Source: Candidatus Brennerbacteria bacterium RIFOXYC1_FULL_41_11 (GTDB lineage Bacteria; Patescibacteriota; Minisyncoccia; UBA6257; Brennerbacteraceae). Taken from it: a DNA stretch of 37,117 bases. The notes below the pieces were generated by a model, which saw only the letters and a list, made by a program, of their open reading frames with translations, made no database searches and was not told the origin of the DNA. The position numbers and the translations under genes are program-made. Shown one piece after another: positions 3,567 through 34,665 of this stretch (positions within the stretch are counted from its first letter, which is position 1; every line of letters begins with the position of its first letter). The stretch lies in NCBI GenBank assembly GCA_001817215.1, contig MHHX01000006.1:383-37499 (forward strand), written 5' to 3'.

Positions 3567-5565
3567 CAATCTCCTTAACCAAACTAGCCTGAGACTGAAT
3601 AAACTTTTTCCTCGGTAAAACCTCGTCACCCATCAACACGTCAAAGAGCTTGTCTGCTTCAACAGCATCTTCAATGGTCACTCGGTTCAAAACCCTAGCT
3701 TTCGGATCCATAGTTGTTTCCCAAAGTTCCTCAGCGTTCATCTCGCCCAGACCCTTAAACCGTTGAATGGACGCGCCTTTAATTTTCTCCTCGGCGACAT
3801 CGGTTTCCATAATCTCTTCGACTTCCGATTCTTTGATTTTCGCCTTAACACCGAGAGTCTGAGATTTTATTTTCTGAAGTTCCGCTACGATCCTGTCTCT
3901 TTCTCCGTCTGAATATGCATACCTAATCTCTTTGCCTTTCTTAATTTTGTAAAGCGGCGGCTGAGCGATATACAAATATCCGGCATCAATCACCGGTTGA
4001 AAATATCTGAAAAACAGCGTCAGAAGCAACGTTCTGATGTGCATGCCATCAACATCCGCATCTGTCATGATGATAATTTTATGATATCGAATTTTCGCCA
4101 AATTGAACTCATTGGCGATCGCCGTACCCAATGCAATCACCAAAGTTCTGACCTCCTCATTTATTAGCATTTTTTCCATCCTGGCTTTTTCAACATTCAG
4201 CGGCTTGCCGCGCAAAGGCAATATTGCTTGAGTTTGTCTGTCTCTACCACCTTTAGCCGAACCGCCAGCTGACGGACCCTCAACAATGAACAGTTCTGAT
4301 TCCTCCGGTTTTTTTGATGAACAATCAGCAAGCTTTCCTGGCAACCCAGCGCCCTCTAAAGCCCCCTTCCTCAAAACAGACTCCTTGGCGGCCTTAGCTG
4401 CCACTCTGGCTTTTTGCGCCAAAAGAACTTTTTCGATAATGGCCCTGGCATCATTCTGATTTTTCTCCAAGAACTCTTTCAGGCTTGCCGAGACAACAGA
4501 GTCAACGCTTGACCGCGCTTCAGGATTTCCAAGCTTTGCTTTTGTTTGACCTTCAAACTGAGGAGAACTCAATTTGACTGAGACCACCGCCACTAAACCT
4601 TCACGAACATCATCGCCGGTAAATGCTTCTATGTTTTTAAAATACCCGTTCTGTTTGGCATAATCATTCAAAACCCTTGTCAAGGCCGTCCTGAACCCGG
4701 TTAGGTGCATGCCACCTTCTCCGGTTTTAATGTTATTGGCGAATGAAACTTCCATCGGTTGAAGATCGTCAACAAAACAAAGGCTCACCTCAACCGACAT
4801 CGAATCAAAATCTTTTTTGACATAGAAAATATTATTGTGAAGCTGCTCAAGATCTTCGGTAAGATATTTTAGATAAGAAATCACGCCACCCTCAAAATAA
4901 AAAACATATTTGAAAAGAGCGTTACCGTCCCTTTCGTCGAAAACCGAGATTTTTGTTTTTGAAATCAGATAAGCCTGTTCGCGCAAATGATCAATGATCC
5001 GCTTGAAATCAAGTTTCATCTCCAAAAATATCTCAGGATCAGCATCAAAAATCACTGTTGTACCGGTTCGGTCAGTTCTCTCCTTTTTCTCAACTTTTGT
5101 TGTCGGCTTGCCCCGAGCATATTCCTGAGTCCACAGAAAACCGTCACGCTCAACTTCAACGCGTAACCACTTTGACAAAGCGTTAACCACTGAGACGCCG
5201 ACACCATGCAAGCCTCCTGAAATTTTGTAAGAATCGCCACCGAATTTACCGCCGGCATGAAGCGTGCAAAGCACCGTTTCCAAGGCTGATTTTTTTGTCT
5301 GCGGATGGATGTCAACCGGGATGCCACGACCATTATCTTTCACCGAAACTCTGCTGTTAGGCAAAAGCTTGATCTCAATTTCTGAAGCGTAACCGTTCTG
5401 AGCTTCATCCAAAGAGTTATCTACAACTTCCCAAATCAAATGATGCAAACCGTCAACCCCTGTCGAGCCAATATACATACCCGGCCTTTTCCTGACCGGC
5501 TCCAAACCTTCCAGAACATAAATATCTTTGGCCGAATAACTTTTTACTTCTTCTTTTTTTATCAT
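3559..5565 (-). CDS. gyrB: DNA gyrase subunit B
   Basis: 668 aa; RKRPGMYIGSTG, GLHGVGVSVVNALS, EGPSAGGSAKGGRDRQTQAILPLRGKPLNVEKA, TDADVDGMHIRTLLLT. Confidence 0.97.
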   Translation of the reverse strand: MIKKEEVKSYSAKDIYVLEGLEPVRKRPGMYIGSTGVDGLHHLIWEVVDNSLDEAQNGYASEIEIKLLPNSRVSVKDNGRGIPVDIHPQTKKSALETVLCTLHAGGKFGGDSYKISGGLHGVGVSVVNALSKWLRVEVERDGFLWTQEYARGKPTTKVEKKERTDRTGTTVIFDADPEIFLEMKLDFKRIIDHLREQAYLISKTKISVFDERDGNALFKYVFYFEGGVISYLKYLTEDLEQLHNNIFYVKKDFDSMSVEVSLCFVDDLQPMEVSFANNIKTGEGGMHLTGFRTALTRVLNDYAKQNGYFKNIEAFTGDDVREGLVAVVSVKLSSPQFEGQTKAKLGNPEARSSVDSVVSASLKEFLEKNQNDARAIIEKVLLAQKARVAAKAAKESVLRKGALEGAGLPGKLADCSSKKPEESELFIVEGPSAGGSAKGGRDRQTQAILPLRGKPLNVEKARMEKMLINEEVRTLVIALGTAIANEFNLAKIRYHKIIIMTDADVDGMHIRTLLLTLFFRYFQPVIDAGYLYIAQPPLYKIKKGKEIRYAYSDGERDRIVAELQKIKSQTLGVKAKIKESEVEEIMETDVAEEKIKGASIQRFKGLGEMNAEELWETTMDPKARVLNRVTIEDAVEADKLFDVLMGDEVLPRKKFIQSQASLVKEIDV

Positions 5566-8066
5566 TGTCTTTGTTTGGCGCCAAATTCTATTTCTAATTT
5601 CTTAAGAATTTTATTTTCAATCTCAACCACTTCTTTATCGGTCAGGGTCCTGTCGCCGGCAGAGTACTTCATCCTAAAAGCGACGGACTTTTTGTTATTG
5701 CCAAGATCAAAAGCACTCAAGAAACTGTCGACATTCGCCCATAAAGAATCTTCTTTTTCATAAACCCCATCGACAACCTGTCTAAGATCTTGCCAGACAA
5801 CTGAATTATCAACCTCGACTGCCAAGTCCCTTAAAATTGCCGGGAACTTTGCCAATGGCTTATATTTAGCAGTTTGTTTTTCACTAAATGATCTCTCTAG
5901 CAGATTGAAGTCAAGTTCAAATAATACTACTTGCTTATTGCGAAAGTCAAATCTCTGGCAAACCCCTGGGTTCAAAACACCCAAATAACCAATCATGTCA
6001 TTGACGCAAAACACTCCTTGAGACTTTTCTTGATCAAGAAACTCGGGCAGATTTCCCGCTTTGAAACTAGCCCTGGGCAGAATTTGAGCCAGAGCCAAAT
6101 CAGTTATCCCCTTGACGACGCCTTTAGTTTCAAAAAACAGATTGCTTTTTTTGTCGCCAACGACCACGCCGGAAATTTTATATGGCTGACAAGGCAGATT
6201 GTCATTTCCATCAAACTTTCCTTTACCCAAAGAAAAGACACGGGACAGTTCAAACAAGCTGAAACTGTCAAAAAACCTCAGATTGTCTTCGGCATTCTGC
6301 AGTAATCCAAAGACAAGAGAGTTTTTCAAAAACTTATTTTTTTCTGTCGGCGGATTAAGAATCTCAACCAACTTTTCTTTAATACCAAGTTTTTCTAAAA
6401 TTAAAGAATCTGTCCAGGGATAATTATAAACCTCGGCCATGCCACAACCGACCGACAAAAGATTTTTAATCTTCAGCTCAAAGTCATAACGCGGTTGGTA
6501 TTTTGCCGGCTCAAGATTTACTAACTCTTGTTTCGCCAAAAGCCTGTCGTAACCGTAAATTCTGGCCACTTCTTCAACAATATCCTCGGGAATCGAGACG
6601 TCACCAGTCGCCCGCCACCAAGGAATAGAAATTCTCAACTTTTCGGTTTTCTGATGAAACGTCGTTTTAAAACCAAGACTCTGTAAGATTTTCAATGTCT
6701 TCGCCTTCCCAATATCAATGCCGATTCTTTTCACCAAAAAATCATAGTCAAGCTCCACTGCTTTTTCTTTTTTTGAAAAATTATTAGCATCGGTGATTTG
6801 AATTAACTTTGATTCCTGACAAACTTGCTTTATCAATTCTAACGCTCTTTGCATACCGAGCTCGGCGAGATTCGGATGCAAAGACTTTTCGTAGCGAACC
6901 GAAGCTTCAGTACGCAGTCCAAGTTTCTGAGAAGTTTTCCTAACTGCCACCGCGTCGAAATTGGCAGATTCCAAAACAATGGTTTTCGTCTCTTGACTAA
7001 CTCCGGTTTCCAATCCGCCCATGATCCCGGCTAGAGCCACTGGTTTCTCTGAGTCTGCAATTACGAGACTGTCTTTTTCTAATTTTCTCTCTAGGCCATC
7101 GATTGTAGTGATTTTTTCTCCCAGCCTTGCCAATCTGACGTTAATTTCTACTTTGTTTTGGATTTTGCCCGCCGGCTGGCGGGTTGACTTTTGACTTTCA
7201 GGCTTCAATTTATTGAAGTCGAATGCGTGCATTGGCTGACCAAACTCAATCAAAACATAATTCGTGATGTCCACAATATTATTGATTGGTCTTAGGCCGC
7301 AAGCGGTAAGATGTTTTTTCAGCCACTCTGGCGATTCTCCAATCGAAACGTTCTCGATCACGGCACCCAAATATCTCTGGCAAAGTTTTTTCTCATCGAT
7401 CCCAACTGAAAGACAGCCGACCTTGCGACTTTTAAGAGCATCAATGCTTGATTTCGGTTGTTTCAGTTTCGATCCAAAAATCACTGAAAGTTCCCTCGCC
7501 ATACCGTAATGAGACCAAAGATCCGGCCTATTAGTTAACGACTTGTTATCAATTTCAATGACGACATCGTCTAGTCCCAAAACTGTTTTAAGATCTAGGC
7601 CAGGTTTCAATTTGGCAAGCTTCAGATCCATCACTTCCGCTTCTTGGTGTAAAAACTCGTTGCCCAAACCAATCTCTGAAGCCGTGCAGATCATTCCTTG
7701 TGATTCAACACCGCGCAATTTTGCTTTTTCAATCCTAACGAGATCTCCCTGGCCATGCCACCTGACCATAGCTCCAGCCTTGGCCACGGCTGAAAACATG
7801 CCTTCATAAAGATTTGAGCCGCCGCAAACAATCTGTAAGAGTTCGCTCTCGCCGATATCGACACGAGTTAGCCGAAGCTTGTCCGCTCCGGGTATTTTCT
7901 CAATCTTCTTAATCTGGCCGACAACAATGTTCTCAAGATTTTTGCCTTGATCGTGTAGCTTCTCAACCTCGACCGTAGATTTTGTCAGACCAAGCTGAAT
8001 TTTTTCCGGCGTGATGGACCGAGGTAAATCAAGATATTTTTTAAGAAGGTTTAAACTCAACAACAT
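5562..8066 (-). CDS. pheT: phenylalanine--tRNA ligase beta subunit
   Basis: 834 aa; tRNA-binding domain, B3/B4, B5 and C-terminal ferredoxin-fold regions recognisable; 4-nt overlap with gyrB. Confidence 0.97.
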   Translation of the reverse strand: MLLSLNLLKKYLDLPRSITPEKIQLGLTKSTVEVEKLHDQGKNLENIVVGQIKKIEKIPGADKLRLTRVDIGESELLQIVCGGSNLYEGMFSAVAKAGAMVRWHGQGDLVRIEKAKLRGVESQGMICTASEIGLGNEFLHQEAEVMDLKLAKLKPGLDLKTVLGLDDVVIEIDNKSLTNRPDLWSHYGMARELSVIFGSKLKQPKSSIDALKSRKVGCLSVGIDEKKLCQRYLGAVIENVSIGESPEWLKKHLTACGLRPINNIVDITNYVLIEFGQPMHAFDFNKLKPESQKSTRQPAGKIQNKVEINVRLARLGEKITTIDGLERKLEKDSLVIADSEKPVALAGIMGGLETGVSQETKTIVLESANFDAVAVRKTSQKLGLRTEASVRYEKSLHPNLAELGMQRALELIKQVCQESKLIQITDANNFSKKEKAVELDYDFLVKRIGIDIGKAKTLKILQSLGFKTTFHQKTEKLRISIPWWRATGDVSIPEDIVEEVARIYGYDRLLAKQELVNLEPAKYQPRYDFELKIKNLLSVGCGMAEVYNYPWTDSLILEKLGIKEKLVEILNPPTEKNKFLKNSLVFGLLQNAEDNLRFFDSFSLFELSRVFSLGKGKFDGNDNLPCQPYKISGVVVGDKKSNLFFETKGVVKGITDLALAQILPRASFKAGNLPEFLDQEKSQGVFCVNDMIGYLGVLNPGVCQRFDFRNKQVVLFELDFNLLERSFSEKQTAKYKPLAKFPAILRDLAVEVDNSVVWQDLRQVVDGVYEKEDSLWANVDSFLSAFDLGNNKKSVAFRMKYSAGDRTLTDKEVVEIENKILKKLEIEFGAKQRQ

Positions 8067-8079
8067 AAAAATAAAAAAG

Positions 8080-9120
8080 TTAAAATTGATTCAAGAATCT
8101 CAAGTCACCCGAATGCATCAAACGAATGTCGTCGATGCCATGTTTCATCATGGTGATCCGATCCAAGCCGATATTAATGTAAAATCCCTGCCAAACTTTC
8201 GGATCAAAACCGCCAGCTTTTAAAACATTCGGATGAGGTGGCCCGCCCGGCATCATCTCCACCCAGCCGTCCCATTTGCAAACCGAACAACCCCTGCCTG
8301 AACAGTTCAAACACTGCATGTCAATCTCAAATCCCGGCTCAACAAAAGGAAAAAACCCCGGCCGCATTCTCACCTCAACTTGCCGACCGAAAACTCTTTC
8401 CAAAATTGTTGTCACCAAAATCTTTCCGCCTGACAAAGAGATATCTTTATTAACAATCAGGGCCTCATATTGATAAAAACAACGCTCATGCCCAGCATCA
8501 GTCGCCTCGCTCCTAAAAGCTCTGCCGGGGTAAACAAACCTGAACGGCTCCTTCTTTTTCTTTGCCTGCATATAACGCACACTCATACCAGTCAGGTGCG
8601 GCCTCAAATCAAGCCTTTTCAAACCATTCCCAAGCACATCTGTTTCCGGCTTTATCCAATAAGTATCCATTGACTCTCTGGCTGGATGATCTTTAGGAAA
8701 ATTCAAAACATCAAAGTCATAACCTTCACTTGAAATCTCCGGACCTTCATAAATCTCAAAGCCCAAAAACTTAAAGGCGTCATTTAACTCATTTTTGACC
8801 TGGGTAATCGGGTGCAAGTGTCCCAAGTTAAGATTTTTACCCGGCTCGGTAATATCAAAACCACTTCTTACTGGTTGTCGAGTACCAGCTATCTTTTGTT
8901 TATCAAAAAGAAGTCTTTCCAGTTCTTGCTTCAAACCGTTGGCCTTTGGTCCAAGTTCACGTTTTTCCTCAAGTGTTTTTTCTGCCAGGCTTCGCAAAAA
9001 CAAACTCAGATCAGAGCTCCGACCAAGATACTTAACCCGCCAAGCCTCGAGCTCATCGTTGGTCCTTGCTGTTGCCAGCTCAGCCCTGGCTCTTGTTTTT
9101 AAATTATCCAGATTAATCAT
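8080..9120 (-). CDS. pheS: phenylalanine--tRNA ligase alpha subunit
   Basis: 346 aa; HPITQV, GFEIYEGPEISSEGYDFDVLNFPKDHPAR, GLDRITMMKHGIDDIR. Confidence 0.98.
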   Translation of the reverse strand: MINLDNLKTRARAELATARTNDELEAWRVKYLGRSSDLSLFLRSLAEKTLEEKRELGPKANGLKQELERLLFDKQKIAGTRQPVRSGFDITEPGKNLNLGHLHPITQVKNELNDAFKFLGFEIYEGPEISSEGYDFDVLNFPKDHPARESMDTYWIKPETDVLGNGLKRLDLRPHLTGMSVRYMQAKKKKEPFRFVYPGRAFRSEATDAGHERCFYQYEALIVNKDISLSGGKILVTTILERVFGRQVEVRMRPGFFPFVEPGFEIDMQCLNCSGRGCSVCKWDGWVEMMPGGPPHPNVLKAGGFDPKVWQGFYINIGLDRITMMKHGIDDIRLMHSGDLRFLNQF

Positions 9121-9136
9121 TATTTCTTATTTTATC

Positions 9137-9170
9137 ATGAAAATAACGCCTGCTCAGGCGTTATTTTCAT
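9137..9170 (-). terminator. hairpin at the end of the pheST leader (putative attenuator terminator)
   Basis: Perfect 16-bp inverted repeat ATGAAAATAACGCCTG-(2 nt)-CAGGCGTTATTTTCAT; core AACGCCTG/CAGGCGTT followed by ATTTT. Confidence 0.7.
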
Positions 9171-9186
9171 ATTTTCAAACAAAAAA

Positions 9187-9243
9187 TCAACGCCCAGATG
9201 CGATTCTAAAGATAAAAAAGAAAAAGTTAAAAAATTTATTCAT
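9187..9243 (-). CDS. Phe-rich leader peptide MNKFFNFFFFIFRIASGR
   Basis: 18-codon ORF with 7 Phe codons read from the minus strand; ATG begins 1 nt after the stop of the upstream ORF; stop codon lies in the antiterminator arm. Confidence 0.85.
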   Translation of the reverse strand: MNKFFNFFFFIFRIASGR

Positions 9244-9244
9244 T

Positions 9245-9526
9245 CTAACTTGCAAGTTCTCCAAACGCTTCTCTCAAAGCATAGGCCCTGATAAATTCCT
9301 CAAATTTCTCATATGAACCAGCTGAAAAATCTTCAACCCGATAGCCTTCAAGTAGCTGAAAGCTACCAAGAGTTCTCTTATGAGGATTAATGTCCATAGA
9401 AACAAGAAATCGCTTGTCATGGTAGGTCCCTGAAACATTAACTCTGCCGGTTTCTATTACTTTATAATTGAGAAAATCAAAATGGCTTGCTCCAAGCTCA
9501 GCTGACATTCTATTCCAATGCTTCAT
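9245..9526 (-). CDS. hypothetical protein
   Basis: 93-aa ORF, no family recognised; in line with the pheST leader. Confidence 0.55.
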   Translation of the reverse strand: MKHWNRMSAELGASHFDFLNYKVIETGRVNVSGTYHDKRFLVSMDINPHKRTLGSFQLLEGYRVEDFSAGSYEKFEEFIRAYALREAFGELAS

Positions 9527-9602
9527 AAAAAAATAAACTTACATTGTTTGCCGAACCAAATCCCCTAACAAGAACTGGCCCACGCTGAGCGGAGCTAAAG
9601 TG

Positions 9603-9674
9603 TTGCGGGGGAGGGATTCGAACCCCCGACCTCATGGTTATGAGCCACGCGAGCTGCCTCTGCTCTACCCCGCT
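9603..9674 (-). tRNA. tRNA-fMet(CAT), initiator
   Basis: Full cloverleaf; anticodon loop CTCATAA; acceptor AGCGGGG/CCCCGCA gives an unpaired A1:A72, the initiator hallmark; CCA not encoded. Confidence 0.93.
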
Positions 9675-14045: not shown

Positions 14046-14110
14046 AAAAATAAAAAATTAGTTAATCCAAGATCCTCCGCAAAAAAATTTTGCCGAGGAT
14101 GATTAACTAA
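14046..14110 (-). terminator. large terminator hairpin immediately upstream of leuS
   Basis: TTAGTTAATC...GATTAACTAA (10 bp) around ATCCTC-G-GCAAAA/TTTTGC-G-GAGGAT, then TTTTTTATTTTT directly abutting the leuS ATG. Confidence 0.85.
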
Positions 14111-14183
14111 GGAGATCGGTCGAGCCCTTAAAATGCTTGGTTTGGATTTTTTTATGGTTCAACTTTTGAATTTCCGTTTTCAT
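14103..14183 (-). CDS. possible leader ORF MKTEIQKLNHKKIQTKHFKGSTDLLS
   Basis: ATG overlaps the stop of the upstream DHH gene (ATGA); ends CTC CTT AGT TAA at the base of the terminator. Confidence 0.4.
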   Translation of the reverse strand: MKTEIQKLNHKKIQTKHFKGSTDLLS

Positions 14184-15199
14184 TTTTGAATTTTACCTTT
14201 TGAATTTTTAATTTGCTCCCAGATCAATTCCTTCACTTTCGCTATTATTTTAACACTACTCATGCTTGATTGAAAACCAGCGGCTTTCTTGTGACCGCCG
14301 CCGTTAAAAAACGCCGCGATTTTTGACACATCAATTCCCGATTCTTCCGAAGACCTAATACTGGCTCGAAAAAATCTCTGGCCTTTTATCTTCTTTAAAA
14401 CCAAAATTGATTTTATCTCTCTGATAAAAATGCTCTGGTTCGAAATGCTCGAAGTTAAACTGCCAGTATCACCAACTAAATTGTTGATCACCACCAATCC
14501 AAAACCCAAAGAACGGTCAATCTTCATCAAGGTCGCATACTTTGAAAATCTCACAAAATCATCAACCCGGTTCCAGCTTCTGGACAACAAGGACGCCTTC
14601 TGAAACTCTTCGCCGGTTTTATTTAATCTGATAATCGTCCTCATGCTTTTCAACGTCAATGGATAATAAGCAAAAATGCCGGTATCATGAAGCATTCCCG
14701 TCAAAAGAGCCGTTCTGGTTTTCTCGGTAAGATCAACCTTCATTGAAAAAAACAAACGCGATAAAATTTCACAGCAAGAATGAATGCTGTCGTCAATATA
14801 GATCAAGTCACCAAGCTGACTGTGTTTCTTGTGATGATCAATCGTGATAATAAAAGCATTTTGCTTTTCCAAAAATTTCAAAGCTCCCAGTTCCAAAACA
14901 TCTCTATTTGAATAATCAACCATAATCACCAGGTCGGGATTGAATTCACGACTAACCTTTCTTGATATTTCTGGATTGTTAAAGTTTGTCCAAGCCGAAT
15001 GCTTAAAATCACTCAAAACCCTGACATCTTTTTCCCTGGATTTCAAAACATAAAAAAACGAAACAAGAGAACCGACGCAGTCAAGATCGGGGCTACGATG
15101 ACCAATCAATAAAACTTTTTTTGATTTTTTAATTTTCTCAGTGATCAACCGGAAAGCCTTATTTTCAGTCAATTTTAAAGATTCTTTTTCCGTTTTCAT
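14180..15199 (-). CDS. DHH-family phosphoesterase (NrnA/RecJ-like)
   Basis: LLIGHRSPDLDCVGSL, VDYSN, IDHHKKHSQLG, C-terminal GGGHKKAAGF. Confidence 0.93.
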   Translation of the reverse strand: MKTEKESLKLTENKAFRLITEKIKKSKKVLLIGHRSPDLDCVGSLVSFFYVLKSREKDVRVLSDFKHSAWTNFNNPEISRKVSREFNPDLVIMVDYSNRDVLELGALKFLEKQNAFIITIDHHKKHSQLGDLIYIDDSIHSCCEILSRLFFSMKVDLTEKTRTALLTGMLHDTGIFAYYPLTLKSMRTIIRLNKTGEEFQKASLLSRSWNRVDDFVRFSKYATLMKIDRSLGFGLVVINNLVGDTGSLTSSISNQSIFIREIKSILVLKKIKGQRFFRASIRSSEESGIDVSKIAAFFNGGGHKKAAGFQSSMSSVKIIAKVKELIWEQIKNSKGKIQK

Positions 15200-33302: not shown

Positions 33303-33482
33303 CTAGGCTAATCTAGGGCACAATTGCGAAATTCCTTCCTCAATGTCTGATGTATCACTACTATCTGCCGACGGCGTTTCCTATCTCCTACCGCGGGATC
33401 AATGAGGTGTTAACTAGTATGCGGATTCGCAAAGCCCCGATACTATTATTAATAACATAAAGATACGAAAAAGACAAGTTAT

Positions 33483-33509
33483 TGAAACTTAGCTGAAATA
33501 ACTTATAAT
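33483..33509 (+). promoter_or_regulatory. promoter of the trpS leader
   Basis: TTGAAA-type -35 and perfect TATAAT (33504-33509), about 16-bp spacer. Confidence 0.75.
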
Positions 33510-33515
33510 CAGGAA

Positions 33516-33572
33516 ATGAATTCAATACTGAAATTTTGGTGGCGAACAATAGTTAAAAACCTCTGGCAATAG
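33516..33572 (+). CDS. Trp-containing leader peptide MNSILKFWWRTIVKNLWQ
   Basis: 18-codon ORF with tandem TGG TGG and a third TGG just before the TAG stop; upstream of an intrinsic terminator and trpS. Confidence 0.8.
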   Translation: MNSILKFWWRTIVKNLWQ

Positions 33573-33595
33573 AGCTTATTTGCGCGTAATTCTAA

Positions 33596-33618
33596 AGCTC
33601 CCGTCAGGGAGTTTTTTT
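33596..33618 (+). terminator. trpS leader terminator (attenuator)
   Basis: AGCTCCC-GTCA-GGGAGTTTTTTT. Confidence 0.85.
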
Positions 33619-33645
33619 AATTCATTATTAAGATAAAATATAAAC

Positions 33646-34665
33646 ATGAACACAAGATCAACACCAAAAACAAAAAAACGAATTCTCACTGGCGACACGC
33701 CAACGGGCAAGCTTCACCTTGGCCATTATGTTGGTTCCTTGGAAAACAGAATCGAACTCCAACACAAGTTCGACACTTATATCATGCTCGCCAACCTTCA
33801 TGCCTATGCTAATCACTACTATGAGGCCGACCGTATTAACAACGACGGCCACAATGTTGTTCTCGATAACCTGGCTGTTGGATTAGATCCGAATGTGGCG
33901 ACGATTTTTCTGGAATCAGGCGTACCGGAAATTCTTGAACTTTATTCATTTTTCATGACCATGGTCAAACACTCTCGAGTGATGATGAACCCAACTGTCA
34001 AAGATGAGGTCAAATACAAAAAACTTGATCCTTCTGTCGGCTTTATTAACTACCCAATTCTACAAGCGGCCGATATTCTTGCTTTCAATGCCGATTTAGT
34101 GCCAGTAGGCGAAGACCAGTCACCCGTGATTGAACAAACCAGAGAGATTGCCAAGGATTTTAACAAGACTTTTGGCAAAACTTTTGTGATTCCCGAAGCT
34201 AAAATCGGTAGGGTCGCCAGGCTTTGCGGCACAGACGGGAAGCCCAAAATGTCAAAATCCGGCGGCAACTCGATTTTGCTTTCTGACGACGAAAAAACTC
34301 TGAAAGAGAAGGTTATGTCAATATACACTGATCCGAAAAGAATCCACGCCACCGACCCCGGCAAGGTTGCCGGCAACCCGGTGTTTATTTATCACGACGC
34401 TTTCAACCCGAATAAAGACGAGGTAGCTGATCTCAAATCAAGATACAAAAAAGGCGCTGTTGGCGACATCGAGGTCAAGCAAAAGCTTTTCATGGCTTTG
34501 AATAACTTTCTTGAACCAATCAGGGAAAAAAGAAAATACTTTGAATCCCGACCCAAAGAAACAAAAGAAATCCTGGTTGAAGGCACAAAAAAAGCCAGAA
34601 AAACCGCACAGGAAACAATCGAGATTTTCCGTGAAAACTCAAAGTTCCTGGGATTATTAAGATAA
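33646..34665 (+). CDS. trpS: tryptophan--tRNA ligase
   Basis: TGDTPTGKLHLGHYVGSLENRI; PKMSKSGGNSILLSD. Confidence 0.97.
   Translation: MNTRSTPKTKKRILTGDTPTGKLHLGHYVGSLENRIELQHKFDTYIMLANLHAYANHYYEADRINNDGHNVVLDNLAVGLDPNVATIFLESGVPEILELYSFFMTMVKHSRVMMNPTVKDEVKYKKLDPSVGFINYPILQAADILAFNADLVPVGEDQSPVIEQTREIAKDFNKTFGKTFVIPEAKIGRVARLCGTDGKPKMSKSGGNSILLSDDEKTLKEKVMSIYTDPKRIHATDPGKVAGNPVFIYHDAFNPNKDEVADLKSRYKKGAVGDIEVKQKLFMALNNFLEPIREKRKYFESRPKETKEILVEGTKKARKTAQETIEIFRENSKFLGLLR

Follow-up and report, generated by a model that had tools for sequence, protein, structure and literature searches.

Leaders of the biosynthetic operons for threonine and tryptophan (thrABC, trp) carry runs of Thr or Trp codons, which are followed by an attenuator; thrS of E. 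coli is controlled by a translational operator. Patescibacteria (CPR) are reduced, mostly host-dependent bacteria, which are thought to import most of their amino acids, and to our knowledge very little is known about their gene regulation. Classical leader-peptide attenuators with cognate codons upstream of aminoacyl-tRNA synthetase (aaRS) genes are described for trpS and leuS of Streptomyces in the part of the source consulted here (PMC1262725), and a His leader peptide precedes hisS paralogues in bacilli (PMC2965389). A survey of 2010 knew leader-peptide systems from Proteobacteria and Actinobacteria only, Firmicutes being newly added (PMC2965389). In the open-access literature searched, outside of which most subscription papers lie, leader-peptide attenuation has not been reported for CPR/Patescibacteria, and the original prediction knew of no description of such an attenuator in a CPR-like bacterium; the literature searched likewise yielded no Thr leader at thrS and no such leader at tyrS. 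In a perspective on Patescibacteria from 2024, 'attenuat' occurs nowhere in the text (PMC11665869).

In the stretch of DNA analysed here (37,117 nucleotides, referred to as the window), positions 9120-9243 very likely represent a ribosome-mediated transcription attenuator of pheST, and the same design would be used at trpS, thrS and tyrS of the family, a reading to which we assign a probability of about 0.88. The phenylalanyl-tRNA synthetase genes lie on the minus strand, as do all features of this locus: pheS (alpha subunit, 8080-9120; PF01409 with 242 bits, PF02912 with 46.8 bits) is followed by pheT (beta subunit, 5562-8066; PF03483, PF17759, PF03484, PF03147, PF01588). Upstream of pheS we find a short ORF of 18 aa, MNKFFNFFFFIFRIASGR (9187-9243), with its ATG at 9243 and its TGA at 9189-9187. 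Phe occupies codons 4, 5, 7, 8, 9, 10 and 12, that is, seven of the first 12 and seven of all 18, which provides the cognate codons expected of an attenuator at pheS. Directly before this leader a 93-aa ORF without Pfam match (9245-9526) ends at 9245, leaving a gap of 1 nt, a spacing which would permit coupled translation. A tRNA-Met gene (CAT, 9602-9674) lies further upstream and is a same-strand upstream neighbour of the Phe leader in all four leader-bearing genomes described below.

Between leader and pheS, a terminator-like hairpin (9137-9170) is formed by a 16-bp inverted repeat, which reads ATGAAAATAACGCCTG-AG-CAGGCGTTATTTTCAT from 9170 to 9137; its formal loop has 2 nt, a loop of 4 nt closed by about 15 bp being more realistic, and its folding energy is about -19 kcal/mol. 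The U-rich 3' arm UUAUUUUC makes a weak U-tract, situated inside the stem and weaker than those of the relatives; good U-tracts are found in the pheS hairpins of three relatives and at the trpS leader of the window. A second segment, region 2 (GGGCGUUGAUUUU, 9183-9195), contains the leader stop codon and would serve as the 5' segment of an antiterminator: read from 9195 to 9183 as GGGCGTTGATTTT, it can pair with AAAATAACGCC in the 5' arm of the hairpin (region 3, 9155-9170), with a predicted fold of -13 to -15 kcal/mol as long as the 3' arm is still unmade. The antiterminator (2:3) and terminator (3:4) helices are mutually exclusive, and only 0.6% of shuffled versions of region 2 match the energy of the duplex. 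The main elements had been put forward in the original prediction, namely an unannotated Phe-rich ORF with seven Phe in its first 12 codons, its position 1 nt past the stop of the 93-aa ORF, a 16-bp hairpin ahead of pheS, a region 2 competing for the 5' arm and a leader TGA within that region; coordinates and codon count were re-derived, the gap was re-measured and the pairing computed, with the same outcome.

The genome to which the window belongs (G000; 608 kb, 96.5% complete) was compared with five genomes of the same GTDB family (G001 to G005). A Phe-rich leader with five to seven Phe, a terminator-like hairpin and an antiterminator pairing between regions 2 and 3 precede pheS in four of the six: besides the window, in G001 (MAIFKNSFSFFKHLFGR), in G002 (MNQFTFSFFNFKKSV; Parcubacteria group bacterium GW2011_GWF1_45_5, L007) and in G004 (MSLFFFSFNFSNCY). 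In each of these three relatives a hairpin with a good U-tract comes after the leader, and TGNTAAAATAAG comes next. Neither Phe leader nor competing pairings were found before pheS of G003 and G005 (the latter CG1_02_44_31, L006). The region 2/region 3 pairs of the four genomes are GGGCGUU/AACGCC, GGGCGCU/AGCGCUC, ACAGGCG/CGCCUGU and GCGGGC/GCCCGC, and since region 3 pairs with region 4 in all of them as well, three segments vary together, the helices being kept and the letters differing. Across the four leaders, 0-0.9% of the shuffled versions of region 2 pair as stably as the real one, and in every case region 2 holds the stop codon or adjoins it. In a MAFFT alignment of the pheS leaders, the hairpins came to lie in different registers. 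It had been stated beforehand that attenuation would be contradicted by relatives without either the Phe run or the pairings; three of the five relatives have both, with differing helix sequences, and the attenuation reading of the pheS leader is supported by this comparison.

As a control, 143 regions upstream of pheS (from the family, the order, the phylum and some other phyla) were scanned by one rule for each of 20 residues, asking for a short ORF at most 300 nt away with at least five of one residue per 12 codons and a terminator-like hairpin within 130 nt. For Phe, the rule retrieved four of the 143 regions, which are exactly the four members of the window's family; no Phe leader with hairpin was seen in the last 300 nt before pheS in other families of the order, in the phylum or in the other phyla scanned. 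Matches for other residues were sporadic (Pro 2, Leu 2, Gln, Arg and Ala one each) and did not occur in the four Phe-leader genomes. Because Phe leaders appear in exactly these four regions, all in one family, the combination of Phe leader and hairpin at pheS is more than chance.

PheS of the family falls into two markedly divergent types, which share about 46-50% identity (L003/L005/L006/L007 versus L004/L008), and this suggests horizontal replacement of pheS within the family. Directly upstream of pheS, inverted-repeat elements ATCCCGTTAGA...TCTAACGGGAT were moreover observed in two genomes of different families (L004, L009), the L004 copy being located between attenuator and pheS.

A comparable arrangement, absent from the original prediction, lies in the same window on the plus strand (33482-33646) and comprises leader, promoter, terminator and antiterminator. 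A Trp leader peptide ORF, MNSILKFWWRTIVKNLWQ (33516-33572, three Trp codons), is preceded by the promoter sequence TTGAAA-16-TATAAT (33482-33509), whose -10 is separated from the leader ATG by 6 nt; the putative region 2 AAAAACCUCUGGCAAUAGAGCUUA (33555-33578) includes the leader stop codon, and the candidate terminator AAAGCTCCC-GTCA-GGGAGTTTTTTT (33594-33618) is followed by trpS (33646-34665, TIGR00233 with 269 bits). TAAAAT at 33634-33639, directly before trpS, is a possible second promoter element, not scored by the -35/TG rule.

Further aaRS genes of the six family genomes (thrS, trpS, tyrS, leuS, serS, proS, glyS, hisS, valS, ileS and metG) were then located by family searches and their upstream regions inspected; identity of the window trpS, of three thrS and of the G002 tyrS was established by NCBIfam equivalogs. 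Trp leaders precede trpS in three genomes (the window, G004 with MLIRNWRQARIQKLWR and G002 with MNKTLKNWFWLTVKRSWRKS, the last with a GTG start), Thr leaders precede thrS in three (G000 with MQQLTTTTAS, L223; G002 with MQKFTTTTTTTATPLYRQWF, L227; G004 with MKTLITTTTAIV, L221) and a Tyr-rich leader precedes tyrS in one (G002 with MKYFSIYYYTMNV, L280), a terminator-like hairpin following each of them. Around the stop codon the trpS leaders share the core CTGGC..(T)AGAGCT.ATTT, a likeness exceeding that of any of 500 shuffles and kept between genomes whose TrpS are merely 34% identical. Order-wide, Trp leaders with hairpin were not found outside the window's family among 53 trpS regions, nor were convincing Thr leaders among 66 thrS regions; one formal Thr-leader match (thrS L307, MRTKLGGTATKTRPDRK) was judged to be due to chance, its Thr codons being scattered. 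No convincing cognate leader was seen at the scanned serS, proS, glyS, hisS, valS, ileS and metG genes or at most tyrS of the family, these names being judged by Pfam family, length and sequence and not by a curated model. Upstream of leuS in G000 (window 14046-14200, minus strand) and G001 (L154), a short ORF with the C-terminus LLS(R), and with CTCCTTAG shared, is followed by a weak hairpin which begins at its stop; this is too little for claiming a Leu attenuator, and the arrangement is possibly a decayed or minimal one. In G004, leuS is distributed between two open frames (L158, L159; query residues 1-427 and 385-870); the gene may be a split one, or a frameshift or an error of the assembly may have divided it.

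Pairing was assessed over all 11 leaders (four at pheS, three each at thrS and trpS, one at tyrS) by comparing the best pairing between the segment past the first cognate codon and the terminator hairpin with 2000 shuffles. Competing pairing reached p ≤ 0.025 in nine of the 11, the exceptions being the window pheS copy against its whole hairpin (0.058) and tyrS (0.19); of 50 control hairpins, taken from in front of pheS, thrS and trpS genes that have no such leader, 5 reached this level (Fisher exact p 5e-6). The competing segment spans the stop codon or is at most 28 nt off in every leader, falling within -26 to +28 of the stop and therefore in the region which a terminating ribosome would cover, a placement suited to the masking of region 2.

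Based on these features, the following course of events is proposed. With charged tRNA-Phe plentiful, the ribosome would pass the Phe codons, reach the stop and cover region 2, in which case regions 3 and 4 would pair and transcription would end ahead of pheS. Under scarcity of charged tRNA-Phe, a ribosome stalled on the Phe run would allow regions 2 and 3 to pair, the terminator could not form and the polymerase would read into pheST. Since the same genomes also carry cognate leaders before thrS, trpS and tyrS, there is a strong case for translation of the cognate codons being what is sensed. This lineage would accordingly place four or more aaRS genes (pheS, trpS, thrS, tyrS) under leader-peptide attenuation.

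In seven of the 11 leaders, the best promoter match leaves exactly 6 nt between its -10 hexamer and the start codon and in most cases has a spacer of 16 nt, as in the window trpS leader (TTGAAA-16-TATAAT-CAGGAA-ATG) and the thrS leader of the same genome (TTGACA-16-TAAAAT-AAACCC-ATG); the shuffle p values range from 0 to 0.1, some matches not being significant singly. At ordinary genes of the window, distances from -10 to start are scattered between 8 and 37 nt. Since a -10 at this position predicts a transcript beginning at the start codon, these seven leaders are predicted to be leaderless, and most leaders of the family probably start at the first nucleotide of their transcript.

The Phe leaders of G000 and G001 have no convincing promoter just upstream, and in the window transcription would therefore need to come from the side of the tRNA-Met gene and the 93-aa ORF. 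Directly after the hairpin stands an extended -10-like element, TGATAAAAT (9129-9137, minus strand), a putative internal promoter P2 for pheST, TGNTAAAATAAG being kept in all four Phe-leader genomes, and the window has 12 copies of the motif TGNTAWAAT, more than the 4.25 expected. Taken together, this would suit a hairpin that is nothing but an ordinary terminator of the tRNA-Met/93-aa ORF transcript, pheST being driven solely from 9129-9137 and the Phe ORF arising as a by-product of poly-T. We consider this improbable: Phe leaders recur in the relatives, that of G004 with the consensus promoter TTGACA-16-TATAAT just upstream, region 2 can base-pair with the hairpin in each of the four genomes, and poly-T cannot account for the Thr and Trp leaders that precede thrS and trpS. 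As a marker of attenuators, TGNTAAAATAAG was rejected, as it is too common class-wide, typically with one or two occurrences per genome. For the attenuation reading, the element at 9129-9137 is probably an internal pheST promoter supplying basal enzyme, with the attenuator as an extra, starvation-induced source; lying past the terminator and ahead of pheS, it suggests that pheST is transcribed in part without passing the attenuator, and it could leave pheST largely independent of the attenuator. This element, the lack of an obvious promoter near the Phe leader and the leaderless layout of most sister leaders did not figure in the original prediction.

A short hydrophobic peptide with its own stop and hairpin might also be a functional product, such as a toxin or a peptide acting in the membrane, with the hairpin as its terminator. 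Across the relatives, however, the Phe content alone is conserved and not the sequence, the location before pheS is constant, and the sister leaders carry the residue cognate to their aaRS and are not all hydrophobic (the Thr leader of G002 being an example), which makes such a peptide very improbable. Sensing of the leader by uncharged tRNA directly, in a T-box-like manner, or by a protein instead of a stalled ribosome would be in line with aaRS genes being typical T-box targets in Firmicutes (PMC1262725). In none of the 11 loci did a T-box or other leader family score up to its gathering threshold, no T-box was among the weak matches of the window pheS and trpS leaders, and a T-box does not depend on an open frame with cognate codons in a row; hardly any weight can thus be given to this mode of sensing, and ribosome-mediated attenuation is retained as the preferred reading.

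Leaders persist in front of rather distant enzymes: PheS of G001, a member of the same genus, is 47% identical to that of the window and yet has its Phe leader, and TrpS of G002 and G004 are 72% and 34% identical to the window TrpS. The simplest reading would be that the enzyme gene was replaced behind a retained attenuator, as the leaders persist despite this divergence in G001 and G004; repeated gain of leaders appears less likely. We lean, with confidence slightly above even, towards a family regulon of at least four aaRS attenuators, mostly with leaderless leaders, which was retained while the enzyme genes were swapped for distant homologues.

An aside concerns the genetic code. In another family of the same order (f26; L337, L355, L356 and L357, from G030, G048, G064 and G078, respectively), in-frame TGA codons occur in pheS, thrS and trpS, and because three of the four TGA columns of pheS correspond to a conserved Trp, this family appears to read UGA as Trp. 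UGA = Trp has been reported for the family JAKLIH01 of the order UBA6257, class Minisyncoccia (PMC13092985, 2026), and f26 is probably that case. This points, short of proof, to UBA6257 as the order of the window's genome.

If the leader-peptide regulon holds true, Patescibacteria would monitor charged tRNAs one by one and tune the enzymes that charge them, and classical attenuation would be extended to a deep phylum as well as to thrS and tyrS. Being self-contained regulatory elements, these attenuators are testable in laboratory strains; a leaderless layout, if true, would offer a clean system coupling transcription start, ribosome loading and termination.

Among known systems, the Streptomyces attenuators resemble those described here in their cognate codons before aaRS genes and in the shared target trpS; they belong to Actinobacteria, and the targets in the part of that source consulted are trpS and leuS, with pheS, thrS and tyrS leaders not among them (PMC1262725). 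The hisS case of bacilli is similar in that a leader peptide supplants the usual aaRS control outside Proteobacteria, but concerns His only (PMC2965389). Unlike the leaders of thrABC and trp, the Thr and Trp leaders of this family precede thrS and trpS and not biosynthetic operons. Rfam comparison of the window pheS leader gave Phe_leader (RF01859) as the best sub-threshold match, end to end with 24.3 bits, far below the gathering score of 55 bits, and none of the 11 loci reaches threshold; STnc, snoRNA and miRNA-type matches at the hairpin were weak and not credible. The logic of E. coli pheM-pheST, invoked in the original prediction, is nevertheless recognisable in the layout, though membership of RF01859 is not reached by score: both have a Phe-rich leader peptide, exclusive 2:3 and 3:4 helices, a stop codon at region 2 and pheST downstream. 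The present locus differs from its E. coli counterpart in belonging to another phylum, in having no visible Shine-Dalgarno sequence and a probable second promoter past the terminator, in the predicted leaderless state of the leader in its relative G002, and in that several other aaRS genes appear to be equipped with attenuators as well.
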